From contig NC_037594.1 of assembly GCF_003073045.1 (NCBI RefSeq), positions 26,108,927 through 26,172,926 on the forward strand: 64,000 nucleotides of DNA, given 5' to 3'. Shown one piece after another: positions 6,850-59,604 of this stretch. The translations under genes were made by a program, and so were the position numbers. The stretch is from Pomacea canaliculata (Eukaryota; Mollusca; Gastropoda; Architaenioglossa; Ampullariidae). The notes under the pieces were generated by a model. The model searched no databases and had not been told where the DNA came from. It was given only the letters and a program-made list of their open reading frames with translations. Each line of letters opens with the position of its first letter. The first letter of the stretch is position 1.

Positions 6850-7433
6850 ATGCCATTTGCCACAAGCACACCAGCCAAAAAGCATGGAACTTCTGATGAC
6901 TCTAGAGTCAGCATCGAGCTTGATGAAACAGCAGAGCATGAGAATATGCTGAGTGCTGAAGGTGGTGACAACTGCACTCAAACAACCAGCATCACTCTTG
7001 ATGATGGTGAGGTCCTTGCACGGGTTTATGTTTATATACTCTCCATATTAATGTTTATGAACATACTGTCTCAGAAAATTATCAGTTTTGTTGATTTTAT
7101 TGCTTGTATTTTTTAAAGTGATTCTTATATTTTGTGTGTGTGTTTTTAAAAAAATTTATTACTTACAGAATTCACAAGCTCACAAGTCAAAAGGCCTATG
7201 GTGCCAGATGATTCTGGAGTCATCATTGAGCTTAATGAGACAGCAGCAGAGTGTGAAAAAATGTTAGATAATGATAACAGCAACACCATAATAAGTAAGA
7301 ATCACAACCAACCTGCCTTACTTATGTTTCAAGAGAGAGTAGTATTATATTCTTGCCACCTATTCTGGCACATAGTTAATTTAAAATGTCTTCATGACTT
7401 CAAACATTGTCCTCGGTAATCTTTTTGTACGCT

Positions 7434-7466
<33 letters not shown>

Positions 7467-10400
7467 CATTTTTGTTTAGTTTTATTTTGTGAATTGATCA
7501 TTTCTTCTCAGCAGAGACAGAAGAATCAGATATCACCAGCACTGCATCATGGTTAATTTCCATCCACTCCTCTATTTCAAGCTTCTTTTTAGACAAGTCT
7601 TCTATGCTAAAAAAGGTGAGGGTTTTTTTTTTTTTTTTTAAATTTAGTCAGTGAAATATTCTTTTGTACCTATCAATTTGGAAATGAAGACTATATTTGC
7701 TAGTGTGTCTGTAATTGTTGGTGTGTGAGAAAAAGAGAGGCATTTTTTTTTTTTTTTCTCCATAGATCTGTTACTGAAAACTATCGAATCCATGCCTGTG
7801 ATGCAATTTGACAAGATTATTAAAAAATATCAAATCTGACTATGAAAGTTTTGGTTTTATTATTTTTGCCAGGTGTTTGTAGCTGTAGTGGTTGCTTTGT
7901 GCTTCGCTTACTTTGCTGCATCCATTGTGTTCCACATCATTGACTTCTGCCCAGAGCGTCGTGACATAACACCTCTTGTTGCTGTGACCTGTGTGGGTCT
8001 GTTTTTGGGTGTCATGACATTCATGTCTTCCCACTTTGGTCATGACATTCAGCAGAAAGTGCTGGTGCCTGTACATACGGTCATCAGACGTCATTGGAAT
8101 TTTCTGAAATGGTGAGAATAAGAAAGACTGCTTGAGTGATAGAGCAAGGAACTAGCTTTGGCACAAAGGGTTAAGGGGGAAACAGTTGGGTTCATAAGCT
8201 GATTAGCTTATTATAAGACCATATGTGGAAAGTAGTAGAGTGTGCTAAAGGAAGATGCAGCAGCTTCCACAATCATTCAGTCATTGAAAGTATTAAAGCC
8301 GTATAGTATACCTTTTTGCATGGCAATCATTGAGCAAAAGGTTTTTAAAAGCCAGTGACAAGAAATTTAATTAGGTGCATGTTCTGTTTCAGGGTGGTGG
8401 TGGTTGTGCCTCTGGCAGGCATTGTTGCCATTATCATTGGCACTGTCTACAACCATCCAAGGAACCTCCTGTCTCTCGCAGGCTTGGCCACCTTCTTTCT
8501 TTTACTCTTCATCTTCTCTGCACATCCAACAAGAGTAAGTTAAAGTTGGATTAGCCTATCAGTAGTAAGTGTGATTAACCTATGTTTGTTGTAGCATAGA
8601 GGTGGCTTTACCAATCCTGACTGGAATCCTCCCACTATGAAATTGATAGCCATGTATTAATCTTGCTTTTCTTCCTAAAATTAGCTCCCTTTACATCTCA
8701 CCCTCCATAAATGTAAATCCCTTGATTTTTGTTTTTATTTCTCCTATCCTGCTCTTCTTTTTGAAGTACTTTTCTATAAACAATTTGAATGGCACCTGTG
8801 TGTGAGATGGAGAGTGAGTGAGAAATTGGTAGAATGTGTAAATCAGTTTAATGGGTTTGGTGGCTTTCAGGTGAACTGGCGTCCTGTGATTGGTGGCTTC
8901 ATTCTGCAGTTTTACTTCGCTGCTCTGATTCTCAAGTGGGAAATGGGCTACAATATGTTCCGTTTCATGGGAGAGGAAGCTCGTAAATTTCTTGCATTCA
9001 CTGATATTGGATCCAGATTTGTCTTTGGTGATAAATTCACAGACCACATCTTCGTGATGCAAGTATGTTGGCAGATAATACGTCCACTACAAATCTTCTG
9101 TATTGCATGTATGAATGATTTTTGTGTGTGGAAAGTGTATATAATTTTGGGTTGCTGTGTTTTGTTTTTTGCACCCTTTTTATGTCATTTTACATTTTTG
9201 CACACCTCTGCATCCACTTTTTTTTAAAATATGAAAGTTCAACTGTAGGGAGAGCAATATACACATATTTTAATTTAAAGAAATAGAGATTTGGTGACTA
9301 GTCAGTATTTCAATGACTAATGTCCCTTCATTTTTTCCTTCTTACCTTCTTCACTTTTTTCTTTCCTGTCCATCACCCTGTGAATCAAAAGCTGTTGCTT
9401 CTATTGCAGGTGTTGCCTGTCGTCATGTTTTTCAGCTGTGTTATTACAATGTTGTATCACCTAGGCATCATGCAGGCCATCATCGGCAAGATTGCACTAG
9501 TCATGCGCTGTACACTGGGTACCACCGCAGCAGAATCACTCTGTGCAGCAGGCAACATTTTTGTCGGCCAGGTTAGGATAAGCTCTTGTGTTAGTGAAGT
9601 TTGCCAGTCCTAGATAATATCTGTGCATTAGTTATAGAAATCTGTCTTAGTGTTAATCATAAAATGAAGGGATTTTTAGAGACACCCACTTATAATGATT
9701 GGATTGGTTTAGATCTGATAAAAATAAATTAGAAGTCTTATTGGCTTGTCACTGAAGAGAGTACATAACAATGTGCATGTGTCAATATTATCATGATCTA
9801 GATTTCTGTAACCAGAAAATTGCTTGAATTATTAGTGTCATGTTTTCTGCATCAAATAATGTGTCATTGACATTTGATAACAATGTCATAACATTAGCAT
9901 TCATGTCTTTTTATTAATTCTAAATGTCGTATTCAATGACACTTCCATCTTAACTCTTAAACATTTTCAGACCTCAGTGGCAATTTTCTTGAGATCTTGA
10001 GCCCTCTTATGTTTTTTGTGCAATATTTCTGTCCGATAAAACTCAGTGATTATTTTTTTGCTTCATGTGGGTTAGGTTAGGTTAGAAAGTATCAATGCCA
10101 GTAAGATCTAGATTATTACAATGTTTTTGTGTCATCATTTGTTAACTTGGAAATAATTAATTTCAGAGTCAAAATTTATTTTCTTGCCTTATTAAACTTA
10201 CAAAACTCATTAAGCTTTGGAAAGTTTGTTATTGTTTTATTCTCATCCATCTCCGCTTATGATATTGCTGCAGACGGAAGCACCTATCATGATCAGACCC
10301 TTCTTGTCACTGATGACCAAGTCTGAGCTCCATGCTGTTATGGTTGGTGGATTTGCCACCATTGCAGGGGGTGTTCTGGCAGCATATATTAAGTTTGGAG

Positions 10401-13400
10401 TAAGTTAACTGCTGTGACATATTTTATAAAGTTGTCATGAGCTATTTACTTACCTCATTTTAATGTGCTATCAAGCAGTAAAGAGAAAAGTAAAAAAAGC
10501 TCCAAATCTTGGTGAATTGTTGCAACTGTGTAGAATTTTCCAGTTATTTATTTGGGATATTGTTTATAAATAATTTCATAAAGATATGACGATATTCTGA
10601 AAGATTTGATGATTTGTGTTCTGTATTTCCAGTCATATAATCAGTCATATCAATTTTTGAAAACATATTTTCCGTCATTTATCCTTCAGCTTATTGTTTT
10701 ACTTAAGGTGACATGCAAAAGATTCAGTTCTCTAGGTTATTTAGTAGATAATTCAGTCATCTATTTTCTACAAGTAGTTTTATTTGGATTTTGTTCTTAA
10801 AGATTCCTGCAGAGCATCTGCTATGTGCATCTGTCATGAATGCACCCTGTTCCCTGGCTGTGTCAAAACTATTATATCCAGAGACAGAAAAGAGCAAGAT
10901 CTCAAATGTGAATGCTGTGGTGAAGACAAAAGGGTATGACCTTGTTCATATAGGCCATTGATACCTTACAGAAGAATGCAAACAATTTATTTTCTTGAAA
11001 TGCAAAGTAGAAATTTTATATTATTTGTAGGCAGCTGTTATCAGTTACATTACAAACAACCAAAAATTAAAAATGCAGTTTACTGCATTTCATTTCAGCA
11101 TGTCACATCTGCTTGTTTATGTCGAAGCAGGAAGTACTCAAACTTGCTGGAGGCAGCGGCAGCAGGCGCATCACAGTCCATAGCATTGGTGGCGAACATT
11201 GCAGCCAACCTAATTGCATTCATTGCTTTGTTGGCATTTGCCAATGCTGTCATTGCATGGCTTGGTGGGTTTGTCTGCCTCCCTGACCTTTCCTTTGAGG
11301 TGAGCACTTTTATTTTTGCATGTCCATTTGTATCCCATGCTGGCCACTGTCTTCAAACAAGTTTATCCTGGGGTATTGGGTAAACTTTATAAATCAAATT
11401 ATATTACTTGAGTGCATCTAGTCTGCTATTAGACTGTCCGCATCATTTTAATTTTTAAGCAAATATGTCATGATATTAGGTAAATTTAAAGACTGTTCAT
11501 TTCTGCCAGACGTTTGGGAGCGAATGTTCTCACAAACTTGAAAACCAGTGATTTGATTCTCTTTGCTTGCAGCATTTTTTTTCTCAGCTCTCCACAAGAA
11601 AATTGAAAACTCTTGAAAAGAAATGTCTGATGTACCCATAATCACATACAAACTATAGTTTCTTCATACTGAATTTAGCTTTATTTTTTAATCTCACAGG
11701 AATGGTCAGTATTTTCTGTCATCAGATATCTTTTATAACCTGACTATAAAGGATAATGGAAGAGTTATATTAATGACTTTTCATCAAAATTATAATTTCA
11801 AATGTGTTTTCATTATTAGAATAAGTAGACATTGAATTCATAAAAAGTTTTATTTTTGCAAAAAATTTATACATATCAGCATACTTAAAACTATTCAAAA
11901 AAGAGCGACAGTTGGTGCTTGGTACATATGTAATATAAATAAAGAAAAAAGACTAAAAAAAACCCAATAAAACTTGTTATTAATTTCATCACTTGATAAC
12001 TAAAATTATCTTTGTGAATCAAGATAATGCAGAATGAGGCAATTACAAGGTACATATTAATTCTGACTTTGCTGTACCTCACTGTCAGAAAACATATTCA
12101 TTCAATTATGACTCATTTATACCTTGACTGGGCCTGGGGAACAGGTCCTGCACGGAATCACCACCTCACTCCTTTGCCTTCCTTTGGAAAGGGTGGCAAC
12201 ATAATACTTAAAGCTGCTTACTTATTGGAGCTGTACACTGTTCATGCAGATATCTGCTTTACCATTGCCATTATGTTGAGCTGTTTCATTCACCACAAAA
12301 GAATAAATTTGAAAAAGACAAATATAAGCTGATTGAAATATTAAGTAGAGAAAAAAATTCAGTTTTCCAATGCAACTTTTTTTACTTCTTTATAGCTTTA
12401 ACCGCTCACAAATATTTTTGACGTCAGCAACAGCACAGCTAAATTATAGTCTTTCCTTTGAGTTTTTATTTTGTTGTTATTTGCTGACATATATTAGACT
12501 GTGTCCATATGTGTGTGTTTTGAACATTTTTTACCCTTTCTCATGTAAAGGGCATTGAGGCGTCTATTAAATCTGGAAATGCGCTATATAAATTTCCCTT
12601 AGTATTCAATGAAAAGAAGAACAATTAAAATGAAAAGAATAACATTTAACATTTGTTGGGTGCATCAGCTGCATCCAGGCACATCACAATCTTCAACAAA
12701 CTGATGCATCTATGCTGTGTTAAATTTCACACATGCAAAGTGTGATTTCACCTGTAAATGTATGCCATAAAATCATGAAGTTTTATCTTTTCAGAAAATC
12801 TGTCACTACCTGTTAATGCCCTTGGTCTACCTGATGGGTGTCCGGTGGGAGGATGCTGGTCAGGTGGCAGAGCTAATTGCCGTGAAGACATTCCTTAACG
12901 AATTTGTTGCATATGAGAAGTTGTCTGTGTTCATCAAGGCAAGGAATGAGTGCAACCTTGACTACCACATTTTGTCAGTAAGTGTCGTGAACTAATAGAA
13001 TTATCAATGTTCTTGGAACCAGTGCATTAATGTGTCTAAAAAGAAGATTAGGCACTTTCAGTAACAATAATCACAATAACATTTTTTAATAGAGAGTTCA
13101 ATGTACTTGAACAAAAGAGCAGCCTGAGAAACAGATAAGTAGCACTGTTTTAAATAATGAAAAAAAGAGCAGTAGCTGGTTTTGTGTGGTCAGTATGTAA
13201 AGCATAAGAGTTATTTCATCTGGGACCCTGGAGGTTAGAGAAAGAACAGGAGCAGCTGCAAGATATTTTTCTGATACTGCATGTGACAGTGATCCATAAA
13301 GTGTGTGGTATTGTACTAAGAAAGACAACAAATCAAAAACTAAGATTGAGGAGTGGCACATGACCTTTAACGTTACCAGTTTGGTGGTCAGCAAAGACAA

Positions 13401-14198
13401 TTACTGCATTTAATTCACAGTGGAAACTTTGTTGCTTTGTGGTTAGTGCACCTGATTTACAAGTGAAACTTGCATGGGCCAGAATGAGTTGAAAACTCCT
13501 TGACAGAAGGTGTTATGCTTTTAGACACAAATACATAAATGATTGACGACAAGCTGTATTTAAGTTTCTAGTAAAACTATGATTTATCAGATGTTTGTAT
13601 CAAAACATTTATATAACTTATGTAATAAGCATACTAGATTTGCATAGAAACAAATTTTGTGTGTGTGTGTGTGTATACAGCCACGATCAGTGACCATTGC
13701 CACATATGCCTTGTGCGGCTTTTCCAACCTGAGTTCCATTGGAATAATGCTGGGTGGTCTCGGACCCATGGCACCTGACCGAACTAGGGACATGGCACAT
13801 GTTGTTGTGAGGGCGCTCTTTGGTGGAGTCATTGTTTGCTTAATCACAGCATGCACTTCAGGTAAAATACAATCAGCTGCTTGTACTTTAGAAGTGTGCT
13901 GGCCTTTTCTTTTCCCTGAATAATCTCATATTTAAGTTTCTTGTTTTTATTATTTCAAATCTGGAAGATTTTATTTAAAACAGTTGCTGATCTGGTGACT
14001 CTAACATTTTTGTAGAATAAACTATTCAGATATCTTCTGATTTTTGTTACAGGGTTGCTGGTCCCCGAGGCATCATTAGATCTTGAGGCTTGTATGTCTG
14101 CTATGAGAAATGAAACCCTAACAAGTCAAGTCTTTCAAGACAATGTCACTGATGTTACACTGGGGCTTACTACAATCAATATTGGGGCTTTTGCATGA
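6850..14198 (+). CDS. SLC28A3-like: Concentrative nucleoside transporter, SLC28 family (copy A)
   Basis: Na+-coupled nucleoside importer of the plasma membrane. Model of 13 exons, 685 aa: 6850-7006, 7169-7294, 7512-7615, 7873-8111, 8393-8534, 8871-9062, 9410-9571, 10274-10399, 10803-10933, 11131-11299, 12795-12977, 13681-13861, 14053-14198; every junction is GT-AG and phase-consistent. A hydrophilic acidic N-terminus (1-129) is followed by hydrophobic segments from [10 protein letters not shown]. Family signatures: LGTTAAES (356-363), GNIFVGQ|TEAP (368-378), NEFVAY with Glu552, and GFSNLSSIG with Asn593 and Ser596. These match the Na+ site Asn and the ribose-binding Glu, Asn and Ser of bacterial vcCNT. 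The specificity positions are Gly373-Gln374 and Gly407-Val408, closest to human CNT3. The C-terminal tail has N-glycosylation sequons NET and NVT. Length fits human CNT3 (691 aa). The start at 6850 is the first ATG after the acceptor at 6829. It is a tandem paralogue of the copy at 27.7-37.1 kb. Confidence 0.93.
6892..7270 (+). repeat. Duplicated N-terminal exons 1 and 2 of CNT copy A
   Basis: Exon 1 encodes [20 protein letters not shown] and exon 2 encodes [20 protein letters not shown], and the two DNA segments (6892-6960 and 7201-7270) align base by base over much of their length. Exon 2 is 126 nt, phase 1 at both ends, so it can be duplicated without changing frame. Copy B has only one related segment ([20 protein letters not shown]). 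The encoded region is the cytoplasmic N-terminus. Confidence 0.75.
12536..12600 (+). repeat. LINE 3'-end remnant in CNT-A intron
   Basis: The sequence runs TGTAAAGGGCATTGAGG, then AAATGCGCTATATAAATT. The spacing 'TGTAAAGxGCxTTGAG ... GCGCTATATAAAT' is a common 3'-terminal consensus of L2/CR1-type LINEs in invertebrates. No ORF remains. Confidence 0.4.
13425..13530 (+). repeat. Degenerate tRNA-like SINE head in CNT-A intron
   Basis: TTTGTGGTTAGTGCACC resembles box A. About 45 bp on, GAATGAGTTGAAAACTCC is a decayed box B. Similar heads occur at 33020-33130 and 43046-43110. Too degraded for family assignment; no duplication of the target site was found. Confidence 0.3.
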
Positions 14199-16534
14199 AA
14201 AAGAGGCAAAAGCAGCATGAAATGTAGGAAATAAGGAGAGTTATGCCAGAAAAGGATGCATGTTTTCTGTATCACTGACATTGTTTGTATGTGATTTTTT
14301 TTTTTTAAACAAGGGAGTGACATTGGTTGCAACACATATCACTAGGTTAGCAGTTGAATTGCTGGTGCTATTTTCACATTCTGGCATTATTTATGGGATG
14401 TTAAAATGAACCACTGTTCAAATTTATTGAGCCACAGAGAGGTGTTTCACAGAATGAATGCTCAGATTTTCACTAAACTCAGTTTTACCACTGCCATGCA
14501 CCAGAAGTTCCAACTTTTTGTTGGTGATGCATTTCCTATAAATTGTGTGAAACATTCATTTCTAAATGAGACAAGGTCAAGTTGGGTAATTAAAATCTGC
14601 AATTAAAAAAAAGGTGTCATTCATAAGAAATTCCATGTTTTCCAAGTAACCAGTTGAAAGAGTAAGCCCAGACTTGTTGGCGATGTAATAGGTCCTGGTC
14701 TGAATGTTACTTTGACAACAAGGCATTGAAAATAATTTTTAATAAAGGTACACATAAATCAACCTAAATTCTTTTGACGTCACTTAAAATTTCAGCCTCT
14801 ACAAGAGCTTAGAGCACCTGCTTTTGAAGATGTGCCATACAGCAAACCTACTATTGTGACATCTTGAGAATTAAAGTTTTGACCTACTGTTCAAAGGGAA
14901 GATGAATAACAGTGTTCAAAGACTTGTATCTCACAAGTTATTTGCTCAGATTTGGGGAAATAGTATTTTGAGGTGAGCCCTGGTCTGGTATTTGAAGATA
15001 ATTTTCACTTGAACTGACCTTTAAAGAATGTACTAAATGTTTGTGTCTTTATCTGATGGTAAACCTGTAAATTAATGGCTTCCATAGTTTCTCACTTTTA
15101 CCCGGTGTAGAGAACAGGGACAAAACTGTTCAACTCTTTAGACAGGCTCATTGTGTTTTGTGCTGACTTGCATGCATAATATAAAATGTAGATGTGCAAA
15201 GAAATATCAGTCTACATGGTGCAAGTTAGTTTAACATAAAGAATTAACTTGCTACTTTTGTGAAGGTATCCCACCATATGTGCTCATAATATACCAAAGG
15301 TAATATACTTTATGTGCAATGTTTGAACCTGCAGATGGTTATTTATCTTGTCAATAATAGAATCCACAAAATTGCATGGGGAGCCTAAAATATACAGCTC
15401 CTCAATGGTCTCAATGGCAGCATTATGTACTAACATTTTACAACCTCAGCACAGCCATATGAAAAAATGCAATATTGGTTTCTTTGCTTGAAGGTAGAAG
15501 GTGTAGTTGTAATGGCAGTTTGGTCAAATTTTAACACATATTCTACCCATTAACATATCCAAGACTGAAAAAAAGAATGTGCTTGCAATGAACATTCCAC
15601 ATATACTGAGGATGCACAGGAAGTTATAGGTCATGTGTACCAGGGCAAAGTACCAATAACTGAAACAATAGGTGCCAACACCGTGTAATATTCAAAATCA
15701 ATAATATATTTTATCATATGCCCTTAGCTTAGTGAGGGATTTCTATTTATAAATTAAAAATTTTATTTATTCTTGTTTTGGATTTGTAAGTAGAAATAAA
15801 TTTGTGCTGCTTCTGCTATTTAAGCATTTTATGACAGCAGTTGGATTTCTTTAGGGGCTGGAGAAGTGGCGAGATAGCAATATTGCATGTTTTATTTATC
15901 AATACATTATTGTTCCCTAAATTAAACATGAAGACCATCAATGGATTTTAAGTTTAGTACACACCCTATTGTTTCTTTTGAGTATTTTATGGTGTCTTAT
16001 TCTTCAAAGTACACCGCATTTGTGTGCCATTTGATTATTTTGCTGGTTTTATTTTATTTTTTTGTTTGCTTGCTGACTTTATTAGACAGCATTTACTTAT
16101 TGTCCTAAAAAGAGGCTGTTTCTTACTGCTGCTGTTTTCTGTTTGTTTTTTTGTTCCTATTGGATGTGTGTCCATTGGCTTATAAACTTATCTTTGACTG
16201 TCCAGAGGTTTCTAGATTGAATTTACAGCTTTATGACAGATTGATATTTCTTTCTATAATAATCATTTGGTTTTTATCATGGTTATAGTCTTTAAGATGA
16301 AAAATTGTTAAGAACCCTGAACAGTACTTCTGATCTTGAATTTAAGTACATATTAATTTTCATTACTTTTTGTGCTGATTTTTTGTGTATTTATTTGTCA
16401 ATAATGTTGCTTAGAAGGAAAATGTAGTTTCGTAACTACGTAATCTGGTGTCACCATGGCCTTGTAACGGAAATGTGTAGAAACTGACACTGCCCACTGT
16501 TCTCATTTGTTAAAATAAAACCAAAAAAAAAAAA
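14199..16534 (+). other. 3' UTR of CNT copy A and AT-rich flank
   Basis: No reading frame of interest. AATAAA signals occur at 14741-14746 and at 16514-16519, the latter followed by an A-run (16523-16534). Either could end the transcript; the first gives a 0.55-kb 3' UTR, the second about 2.3 kb. Confidence 0.4.
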
Positions 16535-19500
16535 TTGTTACATCTGGGGAAGAAGCCATGAACCCTGTGTCAAAGATATGACTGTACTAAGAATGGGGAC
16601 CAAAGCGATAGGTCAGAAACATTTGTTTGCATCCATGTGAAATATCTCTGCTGCTGTAGTAATGTCAACACCACCGGAAGCAATGGAGGATGGGAGGGGG
16701 GAATACACCGACGAGTAAGACGACAGCGACAACCACTGCAAGGACTGACGGACACTTACAGCAAAGATCAACATGCGCTGTGTGGTTCTGCTTCCATCTC
16801 AAGCTTTTGTTAGTACAGTTACAGAGAGGCGCTTGTTCGTGTATTAATTAATTTGTGCTTGGGTGAAGTGAAACCTGATCGTAACAGTATTTAGTAGATA
16901 TTAATACACTTGGCTCGGGGTTTTAGCCTCTTGCCTTTAGCGGATCCAGTGCCATTACTTTACCGCCCTTATAAACTTGTTTCGATGAATTATAAGCTGT
17001 GAGTGAAGAGTGTGCCAGTCTAGACACTATAAGTGGTTTCGGGTGTGATAACAGATGCAGCATGGCGGGAAGGGCAGCTAGAGGCTGGAGTATGCTAAAG
17101 TATTAGAGTGACGGGGTTAGTAATGGCTGAGAGAAATAATTTGAATTCCGTGACTACGCTGGGGTTGATGTCGATATCACATCTTATAAAATACAAATCG
17201 AGCAGAGTGCACGAGCACATCGTGATGACTTGTCCTTGGGTGTCAATCTGTTACATTACTGCTAACGTCTTGTAGCAATCTAAAATTAAAAGAAAAAAAG
17301 TTTAGCTGACTAGCATTCAGTAGCGCGAGTGTGTCTCTGTAATTATATGCACAGCCATTAGTTTGATCTGTCCAACTCACACTTTGCAGTACTCCTTTTC
17401 CTCTAAGGAAAAAAAAAGATTATAAACTTATTTGATTGGTATATATGTTTATTTCAGTGTTCGTTTTACCCACTATAATATGTTACCAGTAGATACAAAT
17501 GAATATAATCTACTACCTTAGAGGAAATTTTAACAATGATGTAATTTAAGATTTTCCAAAATAGGGAAGGGGGAGCACATACCTATATATCAAAGATGCA
17601 TGTCCTTGGAGGGAGCAAGCACCTCCGCAATATCTATCTGTACCCCTCCACCTGTCCGCGGGCGCACAGAGTCACGGGTATCACCCTGTACATCACCACA
17701 ATGTGTATCTCCCCTTCGCTCGAAGCATGGTATGCACGTTGCCCGTTATCCGATGAACATCAAACTGGCAATATTACAATATTGCAGTGTTGGGGCGTGT
17801 GAATGCAAGTTTTGTTTTGTTTGTTTTTTTTTGTGGTGTGTGCAGGGTTCTATTGTGGGTTATTTCCCTAGATTGTGCCATAAATAGACAAAATAGTATA
17901 TATATAATCACTAAATTAAGGTGCGCGTTATTGACGAGAGAAAGATGAGCTGTCCACCTCAACCAGTTTGAGAAGGAGCATAACAAGTGCAGCTATTCCA
18001 TGTCAGTAGAAATATAAAAATCAAAGGGCCGCTGCTTGCTGTTTCAGTGACTTTCAGATCTGCCAGACCTCGACACTTCTGGACATGATGGGTCAGACGA
18101 CAGGTAAACATGCAATTCTTAAATCTGTGACCGAGTCACGTAAACGCAGACTAATATACTGAGGTCACGGGCAGGTCAAGACGAGTTATATTTTGATGAC
18201 CGCTACGACGCTACCTCAGCAGACGGGAGAGGAAGAGGAATGTGTGAGTGGAGATCGAGGTGTCACAAATCTTTGCGCGAAACCCTTTCCATCCAACAAC
18301 AACAACAATATTTCATATTTGAGAACAGTACTTAGATTACACCATTTTATCTGTACGCCCACTTCCGTTGGCGGAAATGAGAGTTCAGTTCCTGAAGCCG
18401 AAGGCCAGTTTCCTAGAAACATACCGTGAACCACTTTTCTCCCTAAGCTAATATATATCACGGCCTAATTTAAGAGAAACTGAGGTTTATGTGAAATAGG
18501 CAGCGCTCAAATGTTGAATTAGTGTCATTTGCCAAACAAGTGTAACTGCTGATATGAAAAACAATAAAGAAGTATTTTTTGTGGGAAAACCTTAATGAAA
18601 TATTTTGCTGTGATTATCAGCCACTCAAAGACTTCATTTAAATGCTCAGACGTCCTAATTATAACTTAAATTATAACTTAAAACATGAGTGACAAAAATA
18701 TTTACAATAACAGACAAACAAAGTTCTAGAAGATTTTAGTCGGTGGGCAGAGAGAGAGGGAGAAACAGGGAACTTGTCAGGTTTGTTGGGGTTTTATACG
18801 TGCTTGTTATTGGCATAGCTAGGTGGGATTCTATATGTTAAGTATCGATATTTATTAAAGTATTTTGGATATTACTCGTGAGATATATGTCTCTATTTTC
18901 CTTCTGTTGCTCCTTTTTCTTTCATCTCTCCCTTCTTTCTACTCTCATCTGTCAATCCTATCATGACGTAGCTCCCGCTATATCTGAACAGGGCGGCCCT
19001 GTTACACTATTACCACTAATAATAATAATACTAAACGTATTTATAGAGCACGTGATCATGGTAAAACACATGAGACAAAAACATCAACGGGATATTTAGG
19101 ATGAACAACAGTACTAAGGACTAAAGGACAAACATAGAAGACAAAGAATTGGGTAGCAAACAATGCAGTAACGACAGAGTGAGCTACATTCATCTGCAGA
19201 GGGAGAGGGGGAGGCAGAGAAGTCATTAGAAGTGAGAGAAAGTAGTGCTGGTAGAAGAGATGTATTTTTATTATATGTTTAAAAGATTTGATACTAGGTA
19301 AATGGCGGATATGGAAGGGGAGACAGCCACACCATTTTACTTCACAGTAGCTATAAAGCTGTTGACCATATGCTGTTGTTTCGGTGACACAGAGAGCCTT
19401 ACCACCGACTGGCTGGGACCTGAATTCAGCATCCTCGCAAACCGTTTGAATTTGCATAAATATGTTTCAATGTTGTCTTTGTCCTCGCAACACGACAGGA

Positions 19501-21906: not shown

Positions 21907-24900
21907 ATGAATCAACCTTCAGGTGAGTTTTTTTCAGTCTGTCTTATCTTTGTTTGAATTGTCCTATTCCAGTCATTTGTGCATTACACATATCATTTCT
22001 TTATTGAGTTGGTTCTTATGCATTTGTTCTAGCGATGCTATAGGACTTCTGCGTCTTATAGTTTTTTTCCAAGTCGCTAGAATATAACTGCATGAGACTT
22101 ACACACACACAAATGAAGTGCAGCGAAGCAGAACTTTTATTTCAGAATTGAATTTGATTGCAATTAATTTTTGTTTTAAATAAAAGAATCCCAGAAATGA
22201 TGGGCGGGGAGGTGATGATACCCCATTCTTTGGTCTTTTGAAGCAAAATACCCCGAGCAGGTATTCTGAACAATCGAAGAAAGTAAAAGAAATTCGAATA
22301 AGAGAAAATACATCGTGTATAGTTGTAGTAGTACTAGGGTGTGATATCATATGATATAAAATATTATATTAACTTACCATTGACTTGCAAAAATATTAAT
22401 TTATTTTAAAGACAATATATGTTTGTGACATCACAGTCACAGTATGTGTTCGATAACTTTTTTTTCATTTTTGGTAAAGTTCAGTCGCCACCACTTCTCA
22501 CGATTTAGAGGAGATAAACAATTAGCTTAACACACTACAAAGCTGCTCTTCATGTAGATAGTTAAATGGGGAAATCGGCATAGAAGTTAATGAAAAAAAA
22601 ACAAACAAAAAAACTCATCTGCAGACAGTCCAGAGGTATGTGTCCTTGGTTTCATCTACATCTTCAGCAACTGATGTTTAGGTATATTAAAGTAAATAAG
22701 GTAGAGTGTTTTGGAGACATAGAGGCAGTGGATGTAAATGGTTAGCGTTATAGGCTATGCCATGCCTGTCTGCATCTTCTTATCTTTCTATTGCAGAGGA
22801 TCCTCCTGCCAATAGACCACAGAACTCAGAAGAATATGACGATGAAAGAGGATGGTTTCCAGATGACTTTCCTCGTCCAGTTGAAGTTCTCTCCAGTCTC
22901 CTGCTTGATTCCCACATTCCTCCAGAGCCAGAACCAGTATCAACCACTTACAATAGTCATGGTACAAGCTCACAGGATTTTGACCATATGTACGCATTGC
23001 CATCATCATATACCAATAAAAGAAAATGCAGTGAGCCAGAGATAAACTCATCAGACCAGCAACTGCCAGGCTTGAGTGAGCTGAATTCAGAATTTGAATC
23101 AAAAAAACCAAAACCAGCCAAAAGTTATATCTGTCCATGCTGTCATAAACAGTTGTCTTGCAGACAGTCCTTATACCAGCACAAGCAGACTCGCCATCCA
23201 GGATACAAAGCAGAAACTTCTCACTTATTCCATTGCGATAGGTGTCCAAACTTTAAATACACAAAAGTTCGAGAGCTGATTATGCACTGTCGGTCATTTC
23301 ATCATGAAGAGAAAAGAGTGTTATACAGAACTTTCAAAACAGAGAAGGATTTTGATGAATGGAAAAAAGAAACTGAAAGATCATACTCAGTAAAGTATGT
23401 CCAAGGGACAGGACATAAGAAACAAATAAAATGTACAGTTACATACTACTACTGCAGTCGCTCAGGTGTTTATAGAGCTGTTACTAATCGAAAACGAGCC
23501 ACAAAGGCCCAGGGTTCAAGCAAAATTGGTGGAAGGTGCACTTCATATCTGGTAGTTCGCAGAAGACTACGTAATGGAAAAGTTGATGTTGAGTACTGCC
23601 TTGACCATGTACCTCACAGAGTACAGCTTGGGTATTTAAAGATACCAGATGACTTGAGAAATATGATAGCTGCTAAGCTTACTCAGGGAGACAAGATAGA
23701 TAACATTCTAGATGATATTAGCACCAGCATCTCAAATGAGGACCAAGACACTTTGGTGACAGGAAGAGACATTAATAACATCAGTAGTCAGTATAACATT
23801 TTATATACACAGCAACATGCAAACGACAGCCAGAGTGTGGAGTTATGGGTGCACAAATTGAAGGAAAGCTCTAATAATCCTGTGATATTTTATAAAGCAC
23901 AGGGTGCTTCCCATGGCATCCTACATGACAGTGATTTCCTCCTTTGTCTGCAGACTCCTTTCCAAAAAGAGACAATGAAAAAATTTAGTACAAAAATCAT
24001 TTTCATGGATTGCACCTACAGCAGTGCAGAAGACGAACTCCTTCTCACTACAGTTTTTGTTCTTGATAGTGCTGAGGAGGCTGTACCAGTAGCGTGGGCT
24101 ATATCAAATCGTAAGGATACAGAAATAATTCAAGTCTTTTTGACTGCATTAAAAGCATCCTGTGACCAAGATTTTCCAACTGATGTTTTTTTGAGTGACT
24201 TAGAAAGTAACTTGTACAGTGCCTGGTGTGAAGTGTTCTCAAAACCACAGAAAAGACTTTGTTGCTCTTGGCTTATTGACAAGAGATGGCGAAGGAAACT
24301 ATATGAGGTTATTCCTTCTAAGGAAATTATGTTAGAAATATATGCCTTTTTAAAGATCATGCAGAAGGAAACAAAAAAGTCAATATTTCAGAAAATGGTC
24401 CAGGACTTTTTGAAATACCTGACAGAAAAAGCTCCAGAGTATTTAGAATACTTCTCCTCAAATTATGGGCTTGATGACAGAATTTCTCTGTGGGCTGGGT
24501 GTTTTCAGACTAATTCTTGTGCAAATGCTAACACGTTTAGGGATGCGTTTTGGCATGTCTTAAGGGACATCAACTTCAACAAAAAGCAGAACAGACGGGT
24601 TGATCATTTACTTATTGTGCTTCTAAAACTGGCTCGAGACAAAGAGGTGGAAAAGCTGGTAAATTTAGAAAGGGGAAGTGTGAATAATTTCTTAACAGAA
24701 ATCAGAAACCAGCACAAAGATGCTAAAAATTTGACTGGAATAGTGGATAGTACTGTTATTGGTGGAGAATGGTGTATACCTTGTCAGATCATAAGTGGGC
24801 ATCAGTACAGTGTGAAAAAAGTCAGTGATTGTCAGTGTAAATTACTGTGCAGTTCATGTAATGTCTGTATTCATATGTATACATGCACATGTCCAGATTA

Positions 24901-25321
24901 TCTTATGCGCACTGTCCCATGTAAGCATATTCATGCAGTGCACATGCTTGTAGGTTTGTCTGATCTTTATTCAGATGCAGATCCAGACCAGAATGAGACA
25001 GATGACCCAAATTTCTTTTCATCTCTTAACTGTCAGGGCACCTCTAGAGCCACAGAGAACAGTGATATTGAAAAAATGCGTACAGCTGCCTTGGCAAAAA
25101 TAGAGGAGTTGGTTGGTCTTCTAAACACTGCATCGGACCTTGAAATCATCCACTTTGTTTCTGAGCGTTTAAATGATGCCCTAAAGGTTGCCAAGGGTAT
25201 GCAATGCACAGAAGTAGAACATACTTCTCCAGCAGGCAAAGCCTTTGACACACAAGACATACATGTTCCTACAAAGGGAAGGCCAGCAATAAAGCTGAAC
25301 AAGCCGTCTAGTCATGATTGA
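21907..25321 (+). CDS. C2H2/SWIM zinc-finger protein with MULE transposase-like core
   Basis: Proposed two-exon gene: ATG at 21907, tiny exon 21907-21922 (donor GTGAGT), then 22797-25321, joining in phase as MNQPSEDPP; 846 aa. An alternative start at 22757 would read through the acceptor TTTCTATTGCAG. Domains in spliced numbering: a C2H2 finger (CPCC ... HKQTRH, from Cys118), a second finger-like Cys/His cluster (CDRC ... HCRSFH, from Cys152), a MULE/FAR1-like RNase-H region with Asp410 (FMDCTYSS) and Asp473 (FLSDLES), and a SWIM finger of form CxCx9CxH (CTCPDYL ... CKH, 702-716). The third catalytic acid is not evident, since the expected T-N-x-x-E block reads TNSCANANTF. The protein therefore looks like a domesticated ZSWIM-type nuclear factor rather than an active transposase. 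AATAAA lies at 25585-25590. Confidence 0.8.
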
Positions 25322-27712
25322 AGAGCATCACGGTATTTCAAGCCGCACAGTAGTCAAAGTTTAACATCGGACAAGACGGACACAGTTGCTCGTGAGGTAG
25401 CACGAAAGAGAGCGTGCAGTGTTAGTTTAAGTTTTACTGGTGTATCTTGTTATTTAATGTTGACAGGACTGTCGTTTATTTTGTGGAGTGAAAAGAGCAC
25501 GTAGACGTCAGCGCGTGCGTGAGAGTGCTGGTGCGCGTGACGTGACACGTACTATTATCCAATCAATCAGAACTTTTATTTGTAAATAAAACCAACAACT
25601 TGTCTGCATATATGGTGCTATAAGACTACATGTTATAATAAAGGAATGTATTCGTTTGTGGTGGATTCTAATATTTAAAATGCATTTATTGGGGTTGCTG
25701 TGTTTGCTCAGATTGATCTTGATGCTCTTCAGGCGAAGTTTTGAGTGAAGAGGGCGATAAAATATCTCTGGTTTCATTCACGGTGCAGTTATCTCACTTG
25801 CTTTGCCATTTCCCCTTCAATATTTTTTGTAGGTTTACTTCTCCCTCTTTTCCTTTCACTCTCTGTAGGTCTGTTGCTGACATTGCTTCCCTCCTTTCTC
25901 TCTTTCTGTAACTTCTACATACCTAGTGTATACATAATCCCTCGATTGGTACCTATACTGTGATGGTAGTAAAAATTATCAATGTTTTCTTTATCCTAAT
26001 GAACAATGAAGTTTGATGCTCATCAAAATCATCTACATTAATTATCTCAAGCCCTCGATCATATTTCCCAGTCATGTGACAGATGCACTTCAACCTGGCT
26101 TCTGATTGGCTGAGTCGGTCACATTGGTGTCACTATGACCTGTGGAAATCCGACATTTAACTGCAACACGCACTGTAACAGATTTTCAAGCTTTTTAATT
26201 AGAAACCGTATACTATATGATGGGGCATTGCAGGCAGAGGACATTTATAGCTGTATGCTGTTGATAAAATACACTTTCTTTTGCGACCCAGATGTAGCAA
26301 AACATGTAGGACGATTTTACGTATGAGCGGGGTTACCACGTGATCCAAACAACCATAGGGGAAGAAGTGAGGGTGCTGCATGTAGACGCAAGTAGGTTGG
26401 GATGCTGACCTCTAATGCAACATGCTTGTCAAGCTGTTACCTCACGTGGGTAACACGTGGGTGCAGACAAACTCATTCAGCTCTGATCAGACTGGTACTT
26501 AATTTCAGAACTGGTTCTCATAATACAAAAAAAGGTAATTGTATTATTAGCCTGCTTTGTTATCTTTGTGAATGCGAGATTGCGACAGCATCAACACGCA
26601 TAATGCACAGTGCCAATAGAAGATAACAAGATTCCCTGCAGGATAAAATGTAACCATGGACGTGTAAGTTCGTGATGTACCAATCTCAAGGTGTTGGATG
26701 CAGTTGCAGTTGCAGATAATGCATCTGTCTGATGGCCCGGCCTTTGGTCATTTAATTTATTCTTGTCCTGATCACGGACAGCACGTGCAGAAATATTCAG
26801 AAAATAGACACACTTGCATGTACACACACACACACAATCATAGCTCACATACAGACGCACAGATTGACATTAAAACTAAAGAAGTGATCTTGGACGCCAT
26901 TATTTTGTATACGGCAAGGCGTGCATGCTTAGGAAGAATACAAGTGCAAAACTGCACATAACTACAGAGATTAGTGTAATAGCACTTCTTGTCTCAATTA
27001 TTTTTGTCCCACCATAAATTCAAATTCACGAGGAAATGCTAAGGTATCAAAATAACTAGTGCAGATACTAGTAAACATGTCATAAAGTTTAATATATGAT
27101 TTCATATTGTGAATTTGCTATGAAAGTGTAAACATGAAGGTATAAGCAATAGATATAAGTAAGCATAAAAAGAAGGCCTTTCACCTTCTTGAGGGTATTG
27201 ATGTATCCAAAAGTCAGTTTCTTAGCTCTTTGCCAGGCCAGAGTCACTTTACAGAGTTTACTGCTGTTTTAAAGAAGTGTAGTTAATCACTTCACGTTTT
27301 AAAAAGGCAGCCTTCTACTATATCTGTCTGCATTATGAAAAGGTATTTGGAAATTTTATTTTAAGGGGTAAGAGGTTAGTCATCAGAGATTATCTTGACC
27401 TATTTAAATTGATGTTCTGCCACAGAGTTCTTATGCATGGATGATGGGAAGGGGGATGGAGATAAGGGGGTGTACATTTATTGAGCAGTTGTGAGCTGTA
27501 TACAGTTTTTGTCTTATCTTAAGGCATGTCATATCACAAGGCATATCTTACACTACAAAGTGTTCTTTCTTGGAAGGAGAGAGAATCAGAAGGTTGTCAG
27601 TTTCTTTTTTTTATGTTTAAACTGTCATTTCTGTTGTATCACATGCTCTCCATTTAAGCATTTACACTATTTAATTTTTTTTTCACTTGTGCTATCTGTC
27701 TCTTTAGATTAA
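25322..27712. other. SWIM-gene 3' UTR and upstream region of CNT copy B
   Basis: No coding motif. AATAAA at 25585-25590 may end the SWIM transcript. Four CACGTG E-boxes lie at 26337, 26443, 26454 and 26782. A good acceptor (TCTCTTTAG at 27699-27707) lies 5 bp before the copy B start codon, so copy B should have at least one upstream non-coding exon that I could not place. Confidence 0.45.
26337..26787. promoter_or_regulatory. Cluster of CACGTG E-boxes upstream of CNT copy B
   Basis: Palindromic CACGTG at 26337-26342, 26443-26448, 26454-26459 and 26782-26787. The middle two form a tandem CACGTGGGT repeat 11 bp apart, roughly one helical turn. Such sites bind bHLH factors (Myc/Max, USF, TFE-type). 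Position 0.9-1.4 kb before the first coding exon fits a promoter, but this is inference. Confidence 0.3.
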
Positions 27713-30700
27713 ATGATGTCGCTGACACGAAGAACGCCAGCCCTAGGGTCTGTCGCTCCTGAAGATCCTGTAGCCAATATAGAACTTGATAAGGTGAAGC
27801 CAGAGAGTGAGAACTTGTTGGAATCAAAAAATGGAGACACCCCTGATGGTGAAATCAATCATGTTAGAATTATATTAGGAGGTGAGTGACATTTATTAGA
27901 GTCTTTGTATTTTGAGAAGTTTTAATGTAATTAGTGGTAGATTTAATATGAGACATTTTTGTTAAAACACTTGGACATACCTGTTTTTTCATTAACCTAC
28001 ACCCTTTGCTCCTTACTTTTGTGTGTGTGTGTGTTTTTTGCTTAGCTGTGAGACCTAAATAGAGATATACTTGTGAAAGTTTTGCCTGGGATAAGATTGT
28101 TTTTTACATTCGATGGAAGCTGCCAGTCCAGCACAATCCATGAAAAAAATTCAGAAATAATTAAAATCTACATAAATACAAAGCTTGTAAGAGCAGAAGA
28201 GAGGGATCAAAAAGAAACAAGTCTGTATTATGAAAGGAAACAGAACTGGTGCTAAGGGGTAGCAAGGCCTTGAGCAAATAAAATTGTGGGGCCTTTGGAA
28301 GCCAGCACAACATACGTAGCAGGGCAATACAAAATTACGGACTCTCATCCCGACGGTGCACTTAGTGCAGGGCCCCCATCAAGTGTGGGGCCTTGGTCAG
28401 TTACCATTGCTCCCCAACCCCCATAGCACTGGCTCTGAAAGGAAAGGTGTTTAGAGAGAAAATATAAGATGTATTACATTTTACCCAAAAATTTCAGGAT
28501 ATGCCAGACTCATTGAAAGCAGTTTGTTTTTGTTAGGGGAATCAGAATCAGATGATGAAGATGCAGGAAGGACAAGTTCCAACTCCTGTATCGATTCCAT
28601 TCACTCTGCTGTTACTGACTTTGTCTCAAAAAATTCATCGATCTTAAAGATGGTGAGGTTTGCTTTTCATAGTAGTATGTTTGCATGGAGATGAACACTC
28701 TCTCCCATATTCACACATGCATATACCACATACATATATATGCACACTCTGTCTCACACAAAATACATGTTTAGTGAGAAGAATACACATGTATTTTGCT
28801 ACAGAACATGTACAAGTAAAAAAAAAGGCAAAAAATGATAACCATGGAAAAATGAAATATAATTTCCAGTGTTCATTTTTTGTTCACTATATGTGGATAG
28901 AAGAACTGGTTATAACATATAACATTAAAATTAAAATGTATCAACATTAATCATAATTATAAATTCATACTTAACCTTTGTACATCTAGACACACTCAAT
29001 CTCTCACATACATCATCATGGATGCACACACACATGTGAAGAAATGAACTTTTCTTTTTTTCCCTGCCACTTGACAGTCTACAACCTGATGTAAGGAGCG
29101 GGTAACTCCTTGCCATTAAATGGAAAGAAACTTTTTCCTGAATGTTGATTGCCTTTCTACACACATTAACCAGCTTACTGAGCACCTAGTTGTTTCTGAC
29201 ATGGACCGTCATACCAACCTAGGAAGCTGAACTTTATCACCAATTCAATGAAGACTATAAAAATTGTAATCTTTTGTAAATATTACTGAAGGAAAATTGC
29301 TTGGTGACATTCATGGCTTTAACTGGAATTAAAAACTGTCAGAATATCATGGATATGTTAATATCTAGCAAAAGAATTAAATATGCCTAGTATTACCTAA
29401 AAGCTTAGATTTATCCAGCATTGTAATTTAATATGGAGTGCAAAATCTGTAAGTGGTAGTAATAACTGATAATGTTCACTGACCATCAGTGGATTTTGAG
29501 AATACCCATCCTAGAATGAACTTGACATGAATAGGAAACTTGAAAGTGCAGCTATATGAGATTACTTTGCAGATAAGTGCAAAAAGAGACCACAGTCTCC
29601 CATGTGATGTGTAAGAGGCACTAACCACAAACTTTAAGCTATTTTGCAGAAAGCACTTTTGACTAAGACAGGAATATCTGTGTAGAGAGCAAAGGAAATC
29701 AGACTCTTTGATAGAAACACTCATTTTCAAGACACTTCTAACTGAGCTCAAAAGAGAGATAAACAACATATCCGAGACATCCTTATTCAAAGACTTGTTC
29801 CTTATGCTGAGTGGAAGAGATAATGCAGACATGTAAATATTACAACAGACACAAGTTGATGAGTTTGGTTTGACATAATTTCTATACTACTGATTTTTTT
29901 AAAGTACAATATTGAAATAGTTCAAGTAATACAGAATATCCTGTTTGCTATATCTTTTAATTAAATGTTATGACGTTTATTTTCAGGTGTTTCTAGGTAT
30001 GGTGGTGGGAATATATGCAGCATACTTCATCACTGCTATTGTGTTTCACCAAATTTATCATTGTCTTCAGAGGCCTAATTTGACACCGCTAGTTGCATTA
30101 ACATGTGCAGCTCTTTTTTTGGTGTCAGTGTCATTCATGTGGACCCACTTCGGCAACAAATTTTTATCAAAAGTGGTGAAACCCATTCACCAAGCTGTCA
30201 ACAATCACTGGGAAATTCTGCGGTGGTAAGTTGTAATCATATGTAACTTGTTTAAGATGTACCTTTGTTGTTAGAATGATTACGAAGAAAAAGAATTCAT
30301 TTATTTCCTAAGTAACATTGCACAAGGAACATGTCTTGATGATGGCTGCTATATACCTGCTTGGCAGATGTCAACCACACACGCCCACCCACTACTCGCA
30401 CTATTATATTTACTCCCCAAAAATGACTCCTTCCATATATGCAAATACATGCACAGACTTCAAAGACACATTCAACATAGATAATCCTAAATAACATTCT
30501 CAATATCTCAAATATGAGCCCAGCATCCTTTATGTTTCATTTGACTGGCTCTTTTAGTTTGCTACTAAATAGCCACTACGCTATGGACTTTTATGCTTTT
30601 TAAATTAAAATTAAAAAAAATCATCTAAGCAAATTCAGTTGAAAAATGTTGCATATAGGTGGATCTTTAAACAAGAAGTTAGCAGCTTTTAGCTGAACCT

Positions 30701-33700
30701 GTGGTGGATGACCAGGTGAGACAACTGATGGGAGAATGAGTGAAAGAGGTTGTACTAATGTAATGTCAGCAAGGGAGAGGAAGTGTCGGTCATTGTTAGG
30801 ATTTAAACTCAAGTGATCGGTGGTGTACTGTTAGCTGGATTAGTGCATGATACCAATCAAGATCGCTGTGAACAATGTTCAACCATATCATTTCATCAGC
30901 TCACACTGGGATCAAGTTGACGTCATTGGAGGACGAGACTTGTTGCAACAAATGAAAGTTCTGTGTAATTTATCATATTAAACACAACATCATGTAAAAC
31001 ATTCAACTTTTTCTACATAAACAGACATGAAAATAGACAAGATTCAAGCTGATCCTACTCTTTACGAGATTCTAAGCAGTTTTATTTTTTGCCTTTACAA
31101 TCCCTTTAAGGGTTGCAGTCCTGCTGCCTGTAGCAGGTATTGTTGTCATCATCATTAGCACCGTGTACAAGAACCCAGAGAACCTCCTGTCCTTAGCTGG
31201 TCTAGCCATTTTCATTTCTTTGCTTCTCATATCTTCTGCCTTTCCAAGCAAGGTGAGATTGTTCAAAGTGTTTAAATATTTCTTAACTTTCGCAACCTGT
31301 TTAATCAGCTTTTGACTTTTTCCCTTTGCATTTTTTCCAGCTATGTAATACTATTTACAGGAGCGAAAAAATTTTGCTTGTCGTTTTTATATCTTGTTTT
31401 AAAACAGTGAAAGAGAATAAGTAAGACTTTATTGCAGAGGGTAATAGAATAAACAAATATGCTTTTTTACATCTAGCCCTCGAACCCCATGCAAAAAAGA
31501 AACCAAAATCTCAATGTGACTAGAAAAAAAGGCACAATAAAACAAGAAGAAGGAGTATATGTACAAGAATTACTGAAAATTTTTGTGTGAGAAACCCCTG
31601 AGGGAGAAGAGAGAGTGCAAAAACAGTTAATATGGTCATGCTTCTATTACATGCTTTTAGGTGAACTGGCGGCCAGTGATCGGTGGCTTCATTCTGCAGT
31701 TCTACTTTGCTACTCTGATTCTCAAGTGGGATGTGGGCTACAAGGTGTTCAAAACCATTGGTGAAGGAGCACAGAAGTTTCTGTCATACACAGATAGCGG
31801 ATCAGTTTTTGTCTTTGGGGAAAAATATCGTGATCACTTCTTTGTAATGCAGGTTTGACTGTTTTCACTTATGTTGCAAGAAATATTTTTGTAAAAAAAG
31901 TAGTCCTGTAATCTTTGTGTAACATGTAATCTGTAAGCTTTTTGAGAGTAAGTTATTTGAGACTACACTTGTCTCAGTGTTATTACACTGTGCCACATAT
32001 AATTTTTAAACCAGTCAGTGCGCATGCCTTGGTTGCCAGCAGTTTAACCACAGAGATTTTTGTTTGTCCTCTAGACATTTTTAAGGCAGAAAAGGCTTGC
32101 TCCTGCTTCAGATCAATAGTTTATTTCATTTTTAATTATATCTAATTCACAGTATATGATGTTGTATTGTTCAGGGGAAGTGTAAACCAACACATTACTT
32201 CAGATATAGGCATCCCATACTTCTTATATGAACATACAACTAAACACATTGCCATTTACATATTGGTTTCATGCTAATTATTGCATTTTAGGTGACAGAT
32301 TGACTGTTGTTTTCATGCTATCATGATGTATCTATTTTATCATCAGTCTTTAGTCCAGTGAAGAATTTTAGCCTCATTTTGACTGAGAACTGTATGAAAT
32401 AACACAGCTTGCCTGTTCTCCCCTACTCCCTTCACAGCTAGTAAAATATTTTAAGGAACAAAATTCAGAGACTAAAGGAACTCTGGCTCCATAGACAATA
32501 GATTCTGCATGTGAATGCAAGAGTTTCTTAAATGATCGATTAGAGTAAAAAGTTTCAAAATTTCTGTAAGCAAAGCTACAGAATATTGGTAAATATTATA
32601 CACTCTTCTTGGACTTCCAAAGCATCGATCATGATTGTGTTCGAACAATTAAATGGAAGCAACACACACCACAATCTCTTCTATTTTTAGTCACTGAAGG
32701 TTCTTGCAAAGGTTTCATTTGTCTTTTGGCAGGTGTTGCCTGTTATGGTGTTCTTCAGCTGTGTCACTACAATATTGTATCACTTGGGCATCATGCAAGC
32801 CATCATCAGCAAAATGGCATTTGTCATGCATTTCACACTGGGCACAACAGCAGCGGAGTCTCTTTGCGCAGCTGCCAACATTTTTGTTGGTCTGGTAAAA
32901 ATACCTTTTCACCCAGAAATAATATTTAAATTTCAGTTCACTGTACAGTAAGTTTAATGAACTTGGTGCAGCAACTAACCTAATAAGTTATAGACATTTG
33001 TAAGTTTGACTACTTTTAGTGTCACAAATTATAGTTGCATGGTTAGTGGTCTTGATCTCAAAGCAGGTCATGAGTTCAAATCACTCTTAGACCAATGGCT
33101 GGAAAACTTCTGTGGTCCAAAGATCAATTAGCAGGGATAAAGGAAGTAGACATTTGGGCTTTGGTTTCTTAATGTTGTACTCTATTCATCTCACATATCA
33201 CCAGGATATTAAGAGTTAATACCTTTTTCTTTTAAAAAACTTAGCAGGCCATATTAGTAAGATTCTAACTTAGGATATTTGTGGGATGTAGGTGAATTAA
33301 CATGGAGGAGGGAATCGTGAAGTCCCAGTTTGTAGAGGCTAAACACAGAAATTTTGATATTTCACAGAAATGAGTTGCAGTTCATGTTAAATGTTACCAC
33401 AAACAGCTTATATTTTTTACGTCTTCCATATAACGATTTGGAAACATTAATGTTACTTAATGTTAATGTTTGATTCCAGACAGAAGCACCTATCATGATC
33501 AGACCCTTCTTGCCACTAATGACCAAGTCTGAACTCCATACTGTCATGGTTGGAGGGTTTGCCACCATTGCAGGGGGTGTTCTGGCAGCATATATCCAGT
33601 TTGGAGTGAGTTTTCTAAACTTCTGCGGTTGAGACTTGTAAGCCTTTCTGAAAATTGGACCATTATCACTTGACTTTACCAGCCAATAATTAAGCTATTC

Positions 33701-59603: not shown

Positions 59604-59604
59604 C

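Follow-up and report, generated by a model that had tools for sequence, protein, structure and literature searches.

In vcCNT, the CNT of Vibrio cholerae (3TIJ), Gln154 is in direct contact with uracil (PMC4139061), and the equivalent Gln341 of human CNT3 (hCNT3) sits in the base pocket (PMC7440666). A cysteine-less hCNT3 in which Cys replaces Gln341 takes up less cytidine and thymidine in Na+ medium, and less of these two and of uridine and adenosine with H+ (PMC5465479). According to work from 1999, quoted in PMC7440666, hCNT1 becomes a broad transporter upon S319G/Q320M and hCNT2-like upon S319G/Q320M/S353T/L354V. A Candida CNT is reported to carry uridine and purines, not thymidine or cytidine (PMC9431476). 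Drosophila Cnt1 and Cnt2, recent invertebrate CNT duplicates, are removed together by one deletion; the authors suppose an identical biochemical function with different expression, and the passages considered mention no selectivity-residue difference (PMC9467524). A literature search, in which no query was aimed by name at a Leu mutant, yielded no work on this position in molluscs. Here, we describe two tandem CNT genes, copies A and B, from the gastropod Pomacea canaliculata which differ at precisely this residue. They lie in a stretch of 64,000 nucleotides (NC_037594.1, positions 26,108,927 to 26,172,926), the whole of which is called the window; positions are counted from its first letter.

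The reading that we favour, with modest confidence, is that A and B are working Na+-coupled CNTs, that A is broad and B broad with a leaning toward purines, and that the exon downstream of the divergent codon was homogenised by gene conversion. Gene models, residues, conservation, the paralogue survey and the conversion signal are direct observations, whereas function, Na+ coupling and the direction in which selectivity changed are deduced from them.

Two tandem genes and their binding pockets

Copies A and B are open SLC28/CNT genes arranged in tandem. Their features, including hairpin 1 (HP1), are as follows:

6850-14198, + strand: CNT copy A, spliced model of 13 coding exons, 685 aa, GT-AG at every intron
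6850-7006, 7169-7294, 7512-7615, 7873-8111, 8393-8534, 8871-9062, 9410-9571, + strand: exons 1 to 7 of copy A
10274-10399, 10803-10933, 11131-11299, 12795-12977, 13681-13861, 14053-14198, + strand: exons 8 to 13 of copy A
9410-9571, + strand: HP1 exon of A, 162 nt, with the Na+-site Asn and the Gly-Gln dipeptide
9569-9571, + strand: CAG, Gln374 of copy A, equivalent to vcCNT Gln154, last codon before the donor gttagg
10274-10399, + strand: TEAP..GGVL exon of A, 126 nt, with the equivalents of Thr155, Glu156, the Na+-site Thr/Ile and Gly-Val; likely gene-conversion tract with B
27713-37069, + strand: CNT copy B, spliced model of 12 coding exons, 645 aa, GT-AG at every intron
27713-27881, 28537-28652, 29987-30225, 31111-31252, 31661-31852, 32733-32894, + strand: exons 1 to 6 of copy B
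33480-33605, 34386-34516, 34849-35017, 35112-35294, 36526-36706, 36942-37069, + strand: exons 7 to 12 of copy B
32733-32894, + strand: HP1 exon of B, 162 nt, with the Gly-Leu dipeptide
32892-32894, + strand: CTG, Leu340 of copy B, the equivalent position, last codon before the donor gtaaaa
33480-33605, + strand: TEAP..GGVL exon of B, about 92% identical in DNA to that of A

Both proteins contain the Pfam domains PF01773, PF07670 (Gate) and PF07662 in this order, all above cut-off. The NCBIfam model TIGR00804 (NupC/CNT subfamily; cut-off 442) scores 484.8 bits for B and 483.8 bits for A. The closest PDB entries for both are structures of CNT3 (SLC28A3; 8tz1, 8tzd, 6ksw; E-values of about 1e-149 to 1e-153), followed by vcCNT (3tij) and then by another nucleoside permease; we take 6ksw to be human and 8tz1 to be bovine CNT3. 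A and B are members of SLC28/CNT (NupC family), for which Na+-driven uptake and a trimeric elevator fold are predicted. Their nonsynonymous (dN) and synonymous (dS) divergence amounts to ~0.24 and ~1.16, respectively, a dN/dS of about 0.2, which indicates an old tandem duplication with both copies constrained by purifying selection. The possibility that B is a pseudogene was rejected on this ratio and on a reading frame open across 12 exons. A further alternative HP1 exon inside the window was sought and also rejected; only the exons of A and B stand out. The first two exons of copy A (6850-7294) resemble a duplicated exon (DDSxVxIELxET...; 55% identity across 31 positions, E-value 7e-4); an exon of this type is present twice in A and once in B.

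Fifteen positions were compared, comprising the Na+ site, the HP1 tip, the residue pair in transmembrane helix 7 (TM7), and the ribose and stacking ligands, as chosen from PMC5465479, PMC4139061 and PMC7440666. A and B are identical at 14 of the 15; the sole difference is position 154 (vcCNT numbering throughout). All seven conserved ligands, Thr155, Glu156, Val188, Glu332, Phe366, Asn368 and Ser371, are present in either copy, as are all four residues of the Na+ site, Asn149, Val152, Ser/Thr183 and Ile184. The first-pass annotation of this DNA had asserted that ribose and Na+ ligands are intact, and it had placed Gln374 and Leu340 at the codons given above and aligned the motif NIFVGxTEAP of both copies to vcCNT Asn149-Glu156. 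All of this is exact in the spliced models. Its equation of the varying residue with the Gln which contacts the nucleobase in vcCNT and hCNT3 agrees with the literature (PMC4139061, PMC5465479, PMC7440666). The TM7 pair is Gly-Val in both copies, as it had also stated, and likewise in vcCNT. Its emphasis on an Ala before the Na+-site Asn149 of B was misplaced: the same Ala is found in vcCNT and in 69 of 80 bacterial relatives (the best 80 of at least 578), i.e., it is the commonest state and no special feature.

Copy A carries the same residue as vcCNT at 14 of the 15 positions, the exception being Thr for Ser183. It reads Gly-Gln/Gly-Val, which is the code of the CNT3/vcCNT type (Gly-Gln with Ser/Gly-Val). 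hCNT3 has the same ligands as both copies and shares the HP1 pair Gly-Gln with A; it differs by Ser-Val in TM7, by Gln341 against the Leu of B, and at a core identity of about 55%. vcCNT differs from B in Gln154, and the animal genes possess additional N-terminal exons. With its code kept, A would most likely take purines and pyrimidines. Of the earlier description of A as CNT3-like and broad, the code is directly read from the gene, whereas the breadth of uptake is what we infer from it.

In copy B a single transversion, CAG to CTG, would have exchanged the nucleobase-contacting Gln for Leu, the only aliphatic residue within reach of CAG by one base change, with every other ligand kept. Ribose and Na+ binding would be retained and a polar base contact lost. 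The predicted outcome is a weaker uptake of cytidine and thymidine with uridine and purines largely kept, not a strict CNT2. An uptake profile like this is reported from nature, namely for the Candida CNT. Splicing does not explain the Leu. As the last codon of the exon CTG weakens the donor context, with a score of 1.50 vs. 2.59 for CAG (scored from the 23 donors of A and B), and a splice-driven change was rejected.

We take position 154 to correspond to Met314 of the purine-selective hCNT2 (SLC28A2), as implied by the hCNT1 mutants quoted above. The first-pass annotation had regarded B as purine-shifted and CNT2-like through neofunctionalisation; in its strong form this would make B a purine-selective transporter. 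B does resemble hCNT2, whose residues are taken here from the quoted mutants (PMC7440666): in HP1 its Gly is followed by an aliphatic residue, and TM7 has Val. The reach of Leu by one base would suit such an origin. However, B matches two of the four hCNT2 selectivity residues (Gly, Val), with Leu in place of Met and Gly in place of Thr. Neither Gly-Met in HP1 nor Thr-Val in TM7 is found, and an assignment of B to CNT2 was rejected; the Gly-Gln of the CNT3/vcCNT type is missing as well. Further, the HP1 pair alone left hCNT1 not purine-only. The exchange of Ser319/Gln320 for Gly/Met, to which the earlier annotation ascribed control of the preference, yields a broad hCNT1; the CNT2-like state appeared only after S353T/L354V had been added (PMC7440666). 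Two paralogues at 14.41 and 14.42 Mb of this genome, which read Gly-Met/Ser-Val, match three of the four residues and are closer to hCNT2 than is B. Adding that A and B show no rate difference by private sites (see below), we regard a purine-selective B as quite improbable. For B, an altered base preference is most likely, a purine bias is possible, purine-only transport is unlikely, and selection is unproven.

Alternatively, the Leu might mainly alter the use of cations, leaving B strictly Na+-driven, with a poor H+-driven uptake and a base range that is little changed. Yet the Q341C mutant of hCNT3 takes up less cytidine and thymidine with Na+ too, and the structures place the residue in contact with the base (PMC4139061, PMC7440666), which makes this alternative unlikely.

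The exon behind the selectivity codon

The 126-nt exon right after the selectivity codon stands apart. Here, A and B show a synonymous difference of 0.22 vs. 0.52-0.75 in the other eleven exons. Among its degenerate codons for the same amino acid 29/36 are identical, a level reached in 95/20000 permutations in which the best of 12 exons was taken. The similarity in DNA does not extend beyond the splice sites; in the introns none was found. As a control, A or B was compared with four less divergent paralogues (5.0, 13.0, 14.41 and 14.42 Mb): here, the same codons are used at 68/216 positions vs. 366/971 elsewhere, i.e., there is no excess. In these controls exon pairs of unequal length were excluded, and the near-identical pairs 14.41/14.42 and 14.48/14.53 were counted twice.

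A constraint at the codon level, e.g., by splice enhancers or RNA structure, might lower the synonymous divergence of this exon with no gene conversion at all. The confinement of the similarity by the splice sites and the lack of detectable intron similarity would fit. So would a mild excess of identical codons in this exon against five more divergent paralogues (83/189 vs. 291/791 elsewhere), which, like the longest run of identical codons between A and B (not significant, 537/5000), speaks against conversion. On the other side, the less divergent paralogues stay far below the 29/36 of the A/B pair. A tract limited to the exon is just what is expected, because conversion requires homology and the introns have diverged. 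As neither paralogue control approaches 29/36, an ectopic conversion of one exon is the better reading, and we consider codon-level constraint a rather improbable explanation. Probably, gene conversion between A and B took place in the 126-nt exon, which encodes Thr155, Glu156 and the Gly-Val pair; Gln/Leu is encoded just outside, beyond the intron. Gene conversion would have homogenised the downstream exon, which holds the rest of the base pocket, and the selectivity codon across the intron would have stayed different.

Direction, weight and recurrence of the change

At position 154 the 80 bacterial relatives have 77 Gln, 2 Leu and 1 Met, where Gln and Leu are over-represented against other states because the patterns NIFVG[QL]TE and KT[FV][LFA]NEFV served to find these loci. 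Since hCNT3, vcCNT and 77/80 bacterial relatives have Gln, parsimony suggests that Gln is ancestral and that Leu is derived in B. When 71 columns with at least 95% conservation in 82 sequences are examined, B deviates at eight; seven of these are common to A, and Q340L is the only private one. Private sites number 30 in A and 27 in B with hCNT3 as outgroup, and 11 and 14, respectively, with vcCNT. The branch of B is somewhat longer than that of A, i.e., 0.23 vs. 0.14 in a tree with 41 of the 80 bacterial loci and 0.20 vs. 0.15 in a tree with 14 of them and the other paralogues. A faster evolution of B was rejected on the private sites. These numbers do not establish the neofunctionalisation proposed for B; private departures from conserved columns occur in A as well.

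In the tree with 41 bacterial loci hCNT3, A and B cluster with CNTs of filamentous cyanobacteria (L001, L003, L005; about 50% identity, support 97). This grouping changes and becomes less clear once the other paralogues join the tree.

Several points count against a reading in which B alone changed, and changed its base preference. A deviates at nine of the 71 conserved columns, privately at G545A and A637S. Residue 545 of A (12879-12881) is Ala where all 82 compared sequences and B have Gly, and it lies seven residues before the ribose-binding Glu. Ser592 of A is positioned between the ligands Phe and Asn, where 15/80 bacteria also have Ser. On these grounds A cannot be assumed to be the unchanged one. 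Next, an aliphatic residue after Gly need not exclude pyrimidines, given that the S319G/Q320M mutant of hCNT1 is broad. Finally, chance may suffice: under even placement, one or more of the 27 private sites of B (out of 522) would hit one of the four selectivity positions with P = 0.19, or with P = 0.41 if the set is widened to ten pocket positions; one of the three private A/B changes in the 71 conserved columns would fall on the four positions with P = 0.16. The A/B difference is real and well placed, yet not statistically remarkable alone, and the count by itself is no proof of selection.

One may go further and take the Gln/Leu difference as neutral, as a recent variant or as a sequence error, with uptake unaffected. 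The chance of about 0.16-0.19 of striking one of the four positions, the single base change and the somewhat lower donor score of CTG are compatible with this. Against it stand the Gln in 77/80 bacterial relatives and the recurrence of other states, in this genome and in bacteria, which are mostly Leu, Met, Ile, Pro and His (Gly in the degenerate paralogue C3). Moreover, some genes without Gln keep all other ligands (the bacterial gene L007 and the 14.42-Mb gene). We therefore consider a neutral difference or an error very unlikely.

The bacterial cases deserve a closer look. One CNT from Planctomycetota (L007) equals B at 15/15 positions, the Leu included. A sample of this phylum was picked by the C-terminal domain, blind to position 154; the best 30 of 43 matching genomes (99 searched) were used, and the 28 readable genes have 23 Gln, 2 Pro, 1 Leu (this is L007), 1 Met and 1 His. 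Clostridium hydrogeniformans (L033, identical with G001) possesses two adjoining CNTs, 73% identical, which read Ser-Gln/Ser-Val and Gly-Leu/Gly-Val; the only other genome of this genus that was available for comparison (G003) has an adjoining pair with Ser-Gln/Ser-Val and Gly-Ile/Gly-Val. Like A and B, these are neighbouring paralogues that differ at exactly this dipeptide, and the Gly-Leu/Gly-Val partner has the code of B. They are unlike A and B in that the other partner has Ser-Gln/Ser-Val instead of Gly-Gln/Gly-Val, position 155 is Asn, the genes are intronless, and G003 has Gly-Ile. In a sample of the clostridial phylum a CNT was present in 4/61 genomes, of which only C. hydrogeniformans G001 was read at position 154. 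Judged by the Planctomycetota counts and the clostridial pairs, departures from Gln are uncommon but recurrent. This animal and one clostridial genus, which are unrelated lineages, both have an aliphatic residue beside a Gln-bearing partner gene. The neighbours of the clostridial pair, fructose-bisphosphatase and urocanase, are uninformative on purines and as such lend the purine leaning of B no help. The gene context of the bacterial Gly-Leu and Gly-Met genes, with the neighbour of L007 left out, gave no hint as to substrates. No relatives were found in viral contigs.

Possibly, though we are doubtful, Gly-aliphatic (Leu/Ile) plus Gly-Val constitutes a separate base-recognition code beyond the three human CNTs, which would have evolved repeatedly in connection with tandem duplication (this animal and clostridia, with a lone Planctomycetota gene). 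In the animal family, whose codon is the last before a conserved intron, exon-wise conversion could then keep the rest of the pocket identical while this residue diverges, and the family would be a natural panel of variants in selectivity (Gln, Leu, Met, Pro).

The CNT family of this genome and the surroundings of the pair

The genome (440.16 Mb, 24 contigs) contains at least 11 CNT loci: A, B and nine more, seven of the nine on the contig of A and B. The number is a lower bound from a search with the C-terminal domain (41 exon matches, grouped) and one with the N-terminal domain (11 matches). In the models of all eleven loci the HP1 exon has 162 nt and the next exon 126 nt, with the borders of C3 the least sure. 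The selectivity codon is consequently the last before the donor in every model. The HP1 dipeptides are distributed as follows:

Gly-Gln, four loci: A; 5.0 Mb; 13.0 Mb (next residues Ser-Asp, not Thr-Glu); C4 (Asn149 to Ser, Thr155 to Pro)
Gly-Met, two loci: 14.41 Mb and 14.42 Mb, with Ser-Val as TM7 pair
Gly-Pro, two loci: 14.48 Mb and 14.53 Mb
Gly-Leu, one locus: B only
Ser-Met, one locus: 29.0 Mb
Glu-Gly, one locus: C3, a degenerate gene

One exon each could not be modelled in 3/9 paralogues: exon 10 in C3 and at 13.0 Mb, exon 11 at 29.0 Mb. The models are poor for exon 10 at 29.0 Mb and for exons 5 and 11 at 14.41 Mb. The 14.42-Mb gene combines three of the four hCNT2 selectivity residues with retention of the other ligands and is on this account a better candidate for a purine carrier than B. 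Its 90% identical neighbour, the 14.41-Mb gene (L091, C5:14408200-14417999, adjoining L092), has apparent frame shifts in two exons and appears to be a pseudogene or an assembly error. The genes at 14.48, 14.53 and 29.0 Mb and C3 are devoid of the ribose-binding Glu or of other ligands, where 29.0 Mb and C3 were read in part; it may be that they do not act as ordinary carriers of nucleosides. The tree joins A and B as sisters with support 100/100 and does not unite the Met, Pro and Leu genes; it is arbitrarily rooted and has two very long rows.

Further features of the window are:

22754-25318, + strand, between A and B: uninterrupted 855-aa frame with a MULE transposase domain (E-value 1e-7), a sub-threshold ZSWIM1/3 RNaseH-like match and, by eye, zinc-finger-like motifs; possibly a domesticated transposase gene
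40022-40918, - strand, beyond copy B: cytochrome b5-like domain protein (PF00173), neuferricin-like by eye
48210-49183, + strand: frames encoding an RsmB/F-type RNA methyltransferase, two with a match to PF01189, NSUN-like by eye
59604-59692: perfect CAA run of about 30 units, polyglutamine in one frame
61973-62139: ACAA array, 167 bp

At gathering cut-offs Rfam had no match within the window.

How CNTs come to prefer purines or pyrimidines is of relevance to nucleoside drugs and to salvage. Most of the evidence on CNT selectivity considered here was obtained with engineered human CNT mutants. A and B, by comparison, are natural tandem paralogues in which the other ligands match. The more interesting result is not B alone. 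It is a family of at least 11 loci with repeated changes at one codon, beside an intron and a probably gene-converted exon. With Gln, Leu, Met and Pro at this codon, its members form a natural set to be used in uptake assays, and gene conversion and an intron boundary may jointly shape functional divergence.

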